64,000 nt of DNA, from positions 62,001 to 126,000 of the forward strand of contig NZ_MASN01000037.1 of NCBI RefSeq assembly GCF_001861355.1. Reading direction: 5' to 3'. Of the stretch, positions 8,315 to 10,788 are shown piece by piece (position 1 is the stretch's first letter; every line of letters starts with the position of its first letter). Below the pieces are notes generated by a model. It had not been told where the DNA came from. It saw nothing but the letters and a program-made list of their open reading frames with translations, and made no database searches. Origin of the DNA: Natrialba sp. SSL1 (GTDB lineage Archaea; Halobacteriota; Halobacteria; Halobacteriales; Natrialbaceae). The position numbers were made by a program, and so were the translations under genes.

Positions 8315-9196
8315 TCAGCTGGTTCGATCCGAGAGCGACAGTTCCGTTGGATCGATCTGGGTTGCCGACTCCCCTGCCGTTGCGTCCGAGATCGTGTACA
8401 GGGTGGCGTGTTCGTCCATCTCGATCTGTTCTCGTACATCGCCTTCGTTCCCGTCTTCACCTCTGTTTCCGTCTTCACCTCTGTTTCCGTCTTCACCTCT
8501 GTCTCCGTCTTCGCCTTCGTCTCCGTCGGTGTCGGTGTCGGCGGCCCCCTCCAGCACTGTCACTGCTCCCACGAGCAGCGGCGCGAACACACCTGCTACC
8601 GTAACTTCGACATCCGAGAGCGACTCTCGAACCACAACGCGGTCACCCGCCTCAATCTCGTACTCGTCGATCAGATTCCGGGCGGACTCGAGTGCCCGTG
8701 CGTGCGAGACGGTGTGGCTCCCGTCGGTGAGCAGGCCGGTCTCGGGTGAAAGCGACTGCGGCGGGAACGAGGGGTTCTCACTCCAGAGGCCGGCGTCGAA
8801 GTGCTTGATCCCCGGCGTCTCCGGCTTCTCACCGTAGCCGAGCATGCTGGTTCCACGGGGAAGCTCGTAGCGATCGGACTCGAGTTCGTCGACGGGTGCG
8901 ACGATCGCCTGCAGGTTGGTCTCGTCGGCAAGATCCGCTGGCGGGTTTGGGCGGGTTGTGGCCCCGAGGAGTGTCGCGCCGAAGCAGGCGAGCAGGGCTA
9001 CCGGGCCGTTGCCGGCGACACCGACGGTGACACCCTCGCGGACGCCGGCGTGACGCAGGAAGTTGCCGGCCTTCCAGGCCGAGGTACAGAGCCAGTGGGC
9101 GTCGTAGTCCCGGCCCGTCGCGTCGACGAGGACGGTCCGTTCGTCGCGGCGCTCCCGGGTGAACAGTTCGTCGACGGTGGCGACGTGCGCGGTCAT
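8315..9196 (-). CDS. Truncated AMP-binding (acyl-CoA synthetase-like) protein
   Basis: 293 aa from the ATG at 9196 (MTAHVATVDELFTRERRD). The N-terminal part resembles the start of adenylate-forming enzymes (VLVDATGRDYDAHWL, VGVAGNGPVALLACFGATLLGA, an acyl-CoA synthetase first subdomain), but the ATP-binding P-loop and the C-terminal lid are absent; length is about half of the family. A repeat tract encoding Arg-Gly-Glu-Asp-Gly-Asn units lies at 8443-8514. It may be non-catalytic or a shortened haloarchaeal subfamily; sequence shows no frameshift. Confidence 0.65.
   Translation of the reverse strand: MTAHVATVDELFTRERRDERTVLVDATGRDYDAHWLCTSAWKAGNFLRHAGVREGVTVGVAGNGPVALLACFGATLLGATTRPNPPADLADETNLQAIVAPVDELESDRYELPRGTSMLGYGEKPETPGIKHFDAGLWSENPSFPPQSLSPETGLLTDGSHTVSHARALESARNLIDEYEIEAGDRVVVRESLSDVEVTVAGVFAPLLVGAVTVLEGAADTDTDGDEGEDGDRGEDGNRGEDGNRGEDGNEGDVREQIEMDEHATLYTISDATAGESATQIDPTELSLSDRTS
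8443..8514. repeat. 18-bp coding minisatellite, about four units
   Basis: Four head-to-tail units of 18 bp; two are identical at 8461-8478 and 8479-8496 (ctctgtttccgtcttcac), flanked by one-to-few-mismatch units on both sides. They encode six-residue Gly-Glu-Asp-Gly-Asn-Arg repeats in the AMP-binding-like protein on the minus strand, so copy number can change without breaking the frame. Confidence 0.85.
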
Positions 9197-9265
9197 ACTG
9201 GTTCCTGTGTGCCGCGGTGAAAAAAGCGCGCTGAAACGGACGGCTGGCGTGACAGGCGTAAAGTA

Positions 9266-9595
9266 CCACGGGTCAGGTGACCCGTGGCGTTCCCAGAGGC
9301 GCGTCACGCCCAGAACCGGGCGGTAAAGCGTGTGAATCTTTAATTCCCTTCGCGCTCCCGTTCGGTCGCGTGGAACCAGTAACACCCAAACACGCCGTTC
9401 GTGTCCGTGAAGGTCAGCCACTTTACGATGGCTCGACACCACCAGTCTCACCACGTCTTACCATGTTTCAGTGCGTGGGTTTTGAGAGGTTGTTAACGGT
9501 GAGTTCCAATATAATTCAATTATCTCATCCGTAATAAAACCGCAGATTATGACGAGGGGCGTACGCGATTCACCCACGGGTCAGGTAACCCGTGG
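9266..9595. mobile_element. Palindrome-bounded element, probable IS200/IS605-type remnant (MITE/PATE)
   Basis: Two almost identical imperfect palindromes bound a 330-bp noncoding segment: 9266-9287 (ccacgggtca / tgacccgtgg around gg) and 9574-9595 (ccacgggt / acccgtgg arms). They are in the same orientation, with no evident flanking target duplication. Elements of the IS200/IS605 group carry subterminal hairpins at both ends, lack terminal inverted repeats and make no target duplication. Inside, a further hairpin (cgccc/gggcg) sits at about 9313-9328, and no open frame of useful length is present. The right edge is 17 bp downstream of the dnaJ stop. No transposase remains, so the family is an inference. 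Confidence 0.45.
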
Positions 9596-9612
9596 AACTC
9601 TCGCTGTACTCT

Positions 9613-10788
9613 TTAGAACGCCCGCTTGATCTTCTCGAAGAAGCCCTCGTTGATGTCGATCTCGTCGCCGCCGGCCTCGGCGAACGCCTCGAGCGCCTCG
9701 CGCTGTTCTTCGTTGAGCGAATCGGGGGTGACGACCTGGACCTTCACGAAGAGGTCTCCCTGCCCTCGGCCGCGCAGACGGGGCATCCCCTTGCCCCGGA
9801 TACGGAAGGTTTCGCCGCTCTGAGTCGCTCGCGGGATGTCGAACTCGACGGCCCCGTCGAGCGTCGGCACTTCGACGGTGTCGCCGAAGGTCGCCTGCGG
9901 GAACGAGATCGGTAGCCGGTAGCGCAGGTCGTCGCCGTCGCGTTCGAACTCCTCGTGTTCGCGGATCGCGATGTCAATCAGCAGGTCACCGTGACGACCG
10001 CCGTCCGGGCTGGGTGCACCCTCGCCTTCCATCCGGAGGGTTTGGCCCTCCTGAATGCCCGCTGGCACCTCGACGGTGAGCGTCGCCTCGTTACGGACGT
10101 AGCCCTCGCCGCGACAGGAACTACAGGTTTCGGAGTAGAGCGTTCCCTCGCCCTCACACTGCGGGCACGTCGTCGTCTGCTGGACGCGACCGAGCGGCGT
10201 CTGCTGGACCTGGGTCACCTGGCCTCGGCCCTGACACTCCGAACAGGTCCGGGAGTCGGCGTCGGGCGGGTGACCCTCGCCGCCGCAGTCGTCACACTCC
10301 TCGGGACGCTCGACGGTGAACTGTTTCTCGACGCCCTCGAAGGCTTCGTCGAGATCGATCTCGAGTTCCGTGCGCAGGTCGCGGCCCTTCTGTGGTCGGC
10401 GACGACCACGGCCGCGGCCGCCGCCACCGCCGAAAACCTGCTCGAAGATATCGCCGAGGCCGCCACCACCCATGCCGCCACCCATTCCGCCGAATGGGTC
10501 GCCGCCCATGCCACCCATCCCACCGCCCATGCCGCCCTCGCTGGCGTCGTAGCCGTGCTTTTCGGCCTGCTCGTAGCGGTCGTGGCCCATGCGGTCGTAG
10601 GCCTCGCGCTTGTCCTCGTCGGTGAGCACCTGCTTTGCCTTCTGGATCCGCTTGAACTTCTCCTCGGCGTCCGGGTCATCGCTGACGTCCGGATGGTACT
10701 CCGTGGCCTTCTTCCGGTACGCCTGTTTGATCTCCTCGGCGGACGCATCGCGGCTCACGCCGAGTGCGTCGTAGAAGTCCTCGCTCAT
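9613..10788 (-). CDS. dnaJ: Chaperone DnaJ
   Basis: 391 aa. J domain at residues 1-70 with the HPD triad at 32-34, which stimulates the ATPase of DnaK; a Gly/Met-rich linker (about 80-115); a zinc-binding domain with four C-x2-C-x-G-x-G repeats (CDDCGGEG, CSECQGRG, CPQCEGEG, CSSCRGEG); then two beta-barrel substrate-binding domains. Full-length type I DnaJ. It follows dnaK on the same strand but is separated by 284 bp containing terminator-like signals, so it may have its own promoter. Confidence 0.97.
   Translation of the reverse strand: MSEDFYDALGVSRDASAEEIKQAYRKKATEYHPDVSDDPDAEEKFKRIQKAKQVLTDEDKREAYDRMGHDRYEQAEKHGYDASEGGMGGGMGGMGGDPFGGMGGGMGGGGLGDIFEQVFGGGGGRGRGRRRPQKGRDLRTELEIDLDEAFEGVEKQFTVERPEECDDCGGEGHPPDADSRTCSECQGRGQVTQVQQTPLGRVQQTTTCPQCEGEGTLYSETCSSCRGEGYVRNEATLTVEVPAGIQEGQTLRMEGEGAPSPDGGRHGDLLIDIAIREHEEFERDGDDLRYRLPISFPQATFGDTVEVPTLDGAVEFDIPRATQSGETFRIRGKGMPRLRGRGQGDLFVKVQVVTPDSLNEEQREALEAFAEAGGDEIDINEGFFEKIKRAF

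Follow-up and report, generated by a model that had tools for sequence, protein, structure and literature searches.

We found that the sequence directly 3' of the dnaJ stop codon in the window (the whole 64,000-nucleotide stretch of Natrialba sp. SSL1 DNA that was analyzed) is a palindrome-associated transposable element (PATE) with a conserved omega RNA. The element has lost its protein genes and retains a conserved guide-RNA scaffold, and it belongs to a large haloarchaeal group whose members probably borrow enzymes encoded elsewhere. Comparison among related sequences indicates that the element is mobile and that selection acts on its RNA. A guide function in trans is likely but unproven, and we think it rather probable that this is a guide-only, non-autonomous IS200/IS605 element, which is moved by TnpA acting in trans and whose RNA would be used by TnpB acting in trans.

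The limits of the element (Table 1) were fixed by comparison with an empty site in a congener (G004). The empty site reads GCGTTCTAA/GCCTGCCACG, with TTCTAA/GCC around the junction (slash), versus GCGTTCTAA-[AGAGTACAG...TACTTTAC]-GCCTGTCACG in the window. Therefore, the insertion was precise and a target duplication is absent. All six congeners examined lack the element at dnaJ and have both dnaJ and the next gene, and this absence, together with the clean empty site, rules out an ordinary dnaJ UTR. The left end (LE) of the element faces dnaJ, and the right end (RE), which is the guide end, points away from it. The two palindromes form a direct repeat with 95% identity and lie 308 bp apart, and inspection of the open reading frames in the window revealed no credible gene between them. 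Neither tnpA nor tnpB is present inside the element, which is too short to encode a transposase, so it is not an autonomous IS200/IS605 element. It has the near-terminal palindromes of a PATE and ends that are common to IS605-type transposons, and it lacks terminal inverted repeats and a target duplication, so that a MITE is ruled out.

Table 1. Features of the element and its surroundings, in window coordinates
Feature	Position	Strand	Evidence
Complete non-autonomous IS200/IS605-type element (PATE), 355 bp	9258..9612	-	G004 empty site; full-length copies with 94-95% identity
5' target/TAM-like motif TTCTAA with the core TCTAA, the last three letters forming the stop codon of dnaJ	9613..9618	-	kept in the empty site and in other copies
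LE palindrome CCACGGGTCAGGTAACCCGTGG, 22 bp	9574..9595	-	same LE in full-length elements L112/L114/L115
Inner spacer	9495..9573	-	fast-diverging, 45-85% identity among copies
TATA-like TTTTATTA in the inner spacer, possible promoter only	9532-9539	-	
Omega-RNA (sotRNA) segment including the RE hairpin	9258..9494	-	Rfam sot2652, model R1, covariation
R1 core of the omega-RNA segment	9336-9494	-	model R1
RE palindrome CCACGGGTCAGGTGACCCGTGG, 22 bp, forming the 3' hairpin in the omega RNA; ...TACTTTAC is the end of the element	9266..9287	-	
Predicted guide GCCTGTCACGCCAGCC, 16 nt of host sequence after RE	9242..9257	-	position from the empty-site junction; proposed role based on TnpB systems
Host gene dnaJ, immediately upstream of the element and in the same direction as the omega RNA	9613..10788	-	
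Downstream host gene, putative acyl-CoA-synthetase-like (by inspection), start codon ~60 bp past the element	8315..9196	-	

We also searched for further copies. One full-length copy with 95% identity is located on another contig of the same genome (C30), and the congener Natrialba magadii (G005) has two, each with 94% identity. Given that the whole stretch recurs at 94-95% identity, the pair of palindromes is not a product of chance. The other full copies likewise follow TCTAA, as do two solo copies (L004 and L051) of ~50 bp, which have one palindrome and in which the left flank of LE is fused to the right flank of RE. Several TCTAA copies are placed exactly at the stop codon of a long gene. 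A preference for sense insertion at stop codons was considered and rejected, because it did not clearly exceed the background (7 of the 16 TCTAA sites in the window end frames of at least 60 codons). The element gave no match in a pattern search of viral contigs or in a blastn search of phage records. Three full-length IS605 relatives from the same haloarchaeal family (L112, L114 and L115) use TCTAA, share 98% identity in LE and 88-91% in RE, and carry TnpB (the TNB domain, PF07282, was checked in L112); L112 also has a Y1 TnpA (PF01797), which was checked in L112 only. These three are candidate movers of the window element. In the Natrialba sp. SSL1 genome itself, we found five genes for Y1 TnpA and 43 matches to the TnpB domain, and one of its contigs (C41) carries an intact TnpB with an adjoining RNA. 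In this C41 element (L013 91-420), the left end and the start of tnpB are tandemly duplicated (166 bp), which places two LE palindromes before one tnpB.

These results bear on an initial annotation that had been made from the sequence of the window. It had described two nearly identical palindromes in the same orientation around a gene-free segment without target duplication, and this description is confirmed. Its assignment to the IS200/IS605-derived palindrome-associated elements is borne out by the empty site, the lack of a target duplication, the other copies and the full-length IS605 relatives with similar ends. The annotation had named two findings that would speak against it, namely that no other copy existed or that the sequence was fixed with dnaJ as an ordinary UTR in all relatives; other copies do exist, and there is no such fixation. 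However, it had equated the extent of the element with the span of the palindromes (9266-9595, 330 bp); the palindromes were correctly placed, but the true element is slightly longer. Its left-to-right orientation has to be reversed, because the minus strand is the one on which the element is read.

The evidence for an omega RNA comes from both known and newly built models. The Rfam family sot2652 (RF02657) matches the minus strand at 9497-9248 with 40.8 bits (E = 2.9e-7), which is lower than the Rfam gathering cut-off of 61 and thus denotes a homologous fold rather than a filed member. A single-strand fold, calculated for the plus strand of the element, scored z = -4.1 against shuffled sequences, to which the palindromes contribute part. 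An alignment of 21 element copies contained 52 pairs, 20 of them with compensatory changes; 97.1% of the cells pair, and the covariation was 0.297, compared with 0.137 in shuffled alignments and at most 0.067 when the partners were slid. When 16 element copies were used to build a covariance model (R1), the model gave scores of 133 bits for the window element, 134 for the C30 copy and 98.8 for the RNA adjoining the C41 TnpB, and it had matches in 59 of the 125 genomes of the family and in 101 of the 392 genomes of the order, spanning 50 of the 95 genera. The conserved, covarying scaffold ends at the right end of the element and a variable flank then occupies the guide position, as in the TnpB omega-RNA class. 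Thus, the suggestion in the initial annotation that the omega RNA of a lost TnpB element is preserved here was correct as to the RNA, which is supported by sot2652 and covariation, but not as to a mere relic, since a widespread group of elements without tnpB has conserved this RNA; moreover, with the orientation reversed, the RNA ends on the dnaJ-distal side.

The elements that carry only the omega RNA fall into three groups by LE motif: TCTAA (the window element), TCTAC (most elements, with ~20 copies in one genome, G054) and TCTAT (L195 and L204), the last of which is also the motif of the C41 element. The TCTAC elements (L120-L150) have an extra conserved hairpin between LE and the omega RNA, directly before the RNA (CAGTTGC...GGATTAAAGACCTTAATCC...GCAACTG), whereas other copies have an unrelated but still pairing ACGACC...GGTCGT in its place, an apparent case of covariation. 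In many TCTAC elements, the tip of the LE palindrome is interrupted by a 50-60 bp insert with hairpins of its own, for example TCGTACGGAAGACTTCGTCTTCCGTGATGACGAGACGCGAAGCGTCTCGAACCACT; such inserts, located in L135, L137, L140, L144, L148 and L149, resemble the SMR-A repeats of Haloquadratum, which target PATEs there. Four other copies (L118, L119, L129 and L138) have an insertion of 30-120 nt at the tip of one omega-RNA hairpin (after CACGGACAC), which indicates that the scaffold tolerates large apical extensions at that hairpin.

Next, we examined whether tnpB accompanies these RNAs. A complete tnpB in cis was found at none of the 61 family loci with R1 scores of at least 106 bits, four of which have less than 0.5 kb of upstream sequence. 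Partial exceptions are a foreign N-terminal tnpB fragment at L223 and a C-terminal remnant at L231, and an unrelated TnpB lies more than 1 kb away from L149. At most of the 61 loci, LE is located within ~255 nt of the RNA start, which leaves no room for tnpB. No upstream tnpB was found at 35 further loci from other haloarchaeal families, and two loci (L266 and L268) have a neighboring TnpB on the 3' side. The tnpB-bearing RNAs scored 88-106 (C41 and L113 types) or 38-45 (L112 type), although part of this gap follows from the fact that R1 was built on omega-only copies. In the tree, the omega-only RNAs are separate from the tnpB-bearing RNAs, and the tnpB-bearing parents of the omega-only lineages could be unsampled.

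Selection on the fold was assessed with a non-redundant set of 58 omega-only sequences, whose alignment made no use of structure, against a phylogenetic null in which the substitutions of each column were redistributed over the tree (300 simulations). The covariation was 0.307, compared with 0.130 (sd 0.018) under the null, and the number of compensated cells was 230, compared with 63 (sd 16); none of the 300 simulations reached either observed value. Departures from pairing were more often of the G-U type (104) than of the A-C type (44), which indicates that the constraint acts on the strand of the omega RNA. In three copies of the same architecture (L116, L117 and L002, respectively), identity was 94%, 83% and 98% in the 5' scaffold, 71%, 45% and 85% in the adjacent spacer, and 50%, 28% and 97% in the variable hairpin. 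Because all three have the layout that lacks tnpB, the simplest account is that they diverged without tnpB in cis. In a more distant copy (L119), the scaffold was 58% and the spacer 50% identical, which indicates that the fold, rather than the letters, persists beyond close copies.

The guide of TnpB is the sequence that lies 3' of RE, and the flank of LE corresponds to its target motif. Given this rule and the anatomy of the element, the predicted guide is GCCTGTCACGCCAGCC and its target is the empty dnaJ site. In the mechanism that we propose, the Y1 TnpA of a full IS605 element would excise and insert the window element via its end hairpins, and the omega RNA would be supplied by read-through from the co-directional dnaJ or, as a weak alternative, by a weak internal promoter (the TATA-like TTTTATTA). 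A TnpB encoded elsewhere would process this RNA and be loaded with the flanking 16 nt as a guide; the complex would then cut the empty dnaJ allele at the predicted target TCTAA + GCCTGTCACGCC... (TCTAA+GCCTGTCACGCCAGCCG), and repair from a filled copy would restore the element. Here we infer the transcription, the TnpB partner and the cleavage of the empty allele. A promoter and terminator scan with bacterial-type models, which are ill-suited to archaea, returned nothing. It has been reported that TnpB processes omega RNA out of mRNA or a longer transcript (PMC10278001), and the sotRNAs of haloarchaea are processing products (PMC8303175).

As for the partner, the RNA closest to the window element within its own genome is that of C41. 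However, C41-type elements have TCTAT at LE instead of TCTAA, and the L112-type elements, which share LE and TCTAA with the window element, differ more from it in their omega RNA (38-45 R1 bits). Therefore, no single relative supplies both the ends and the RNA. A C41-related TnpB was present in only 21 of the 36 genomes with omega-only copies, where ~14 were expected; this weakly suggests co-occurrence of the two, in an association confounded by mobile-element load and relatedness.

The same observations can be read in other ways. The element could be a plain PATE relic, that is, a deletion derivative that TnpA moves through its ends, with a passive omega remnant inherited from parents that were under selection until recently. 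Core deletion yielding PATEs and terminal-only elements is established in haloarchaea (PMC3119063), and the 50-bp single-palindrome copies suggest that the ends alone are sufficient for mobility or maintenance. However, a passive remnant is difficult to reconcile with a scaffold that is kept at 83-98% in same-architecture copies whose spacer has diverged by up to half, with the strong covariation inside the omega-only set, with the split in the tree, and with the examined high-scoring loci, none of which proved to be a parent with tnpB. We consider such a relic unlikely, while giving it some weight.

Conservation of the scaffold would also be expected if the RNA were not a working guide but sequestered TnpB as a decoy or inhibitor, to the protection of the element or the host; circular sotRNAs have been the subject of speculation about a decoy role (PMC12558985). 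The right-end junction and the target motif are exactly as in guide-bearing elements, which a decoy does not need, yet transposition requires the same ends; we regard this explanation as improbable. Because IS200/IS605 elements move as single-stranded DNA, and the asymmetry between G-U and A-C identifies only the strand, the internal structure might instead be conserved as single-stranded DNA for transposition by TnpA and not as RNA. This seems very improbable, given that the known recognition by TnpA is limited to the end hairpins, that the terminal-only elements have no internal fold, and that the fold matches the omega RNAs of tnpB elements.

Standalone trans-acting omega RNAs have been reported for IscB; these are likewise guide RNAs without their nuclease gene, but they belong to another nuclease family, and we know of no mobile lineage of such size among them. 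The PATEs of Haloquadratum walsbyi (PMC3119063) resemble the window element in their near-terminal palindromes, in the lack of inverted terminal repeats and target duplication, in a conserved terminal oligonucleotide, in their derivation from IS605-type transposons, and in core deletions down to ~52 bp, comparable to the solo copies described above. However, they have been described only as degenerate, and an omega RNA was not recognized in them; HqIRS71, in which the C-terminal region of tnpB is present, may belong to the same kind as the window element. The sotRNA of IS1341-type tnpB is now recognized as an omega RNA (PMC12558985). Haloarchaeal sotRNAs or omega RNAs (RF02657 sot2652; PMC12558985, PMC8303175) agree with the window element in the fold, the place beside the right end, the RE hairpin and the guide position, but they overlap tnpB in cis, whereas the window element has no tnpB and its sequence contains a broken C-terminal tnpB frame. 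A PATE-like element of Halanaerobium hydrogeniformans (PMC7290912) comprises an LE fragment, the last 58 nt of tnpB and a complete 160-nt RE and probably also retains an omega RNA, although it is a single bacterial copy and was not treated as an RNA element. We found no description of tnpB-less omega RNA elements in the literature, within which subscription papers were covered incompletely.

If the guide-only interpretation is true, then TnpB nucleases would be shared goods, and miniature elements would retain only the features required for their movement and for directing a borrowed nuclease at the empty version of their own site, which would account for the fact that many PATEs persist. We lean slightly towards the broader proposal that such guide-only transposons occur across the haloarchaeal order, with omega RNAs that parasitize TnpB encoded elsewhere, so that in trans-acting homing one nuclease would serve many elements with a separate insertion-derived guide for each. 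The guide-only interpretation would also predict that TnpB complexes with several guides coexist in one cell, which would be a step toward separating the effector from the guide, as in CRISPR. Halophilic TnpBs would have dozens of naturally occurring guide RNAs, and genes such as dnaJ could have unrecognized structured RNAs directly behind their stop codons.

In the gene downstream of the element, we also observed a short tandem repeat (ctccgtcttcacctctgtttccgtcttcacc) at window positions 8440-8530, which codes for the acidic repeat GEDGNRGEDGN.
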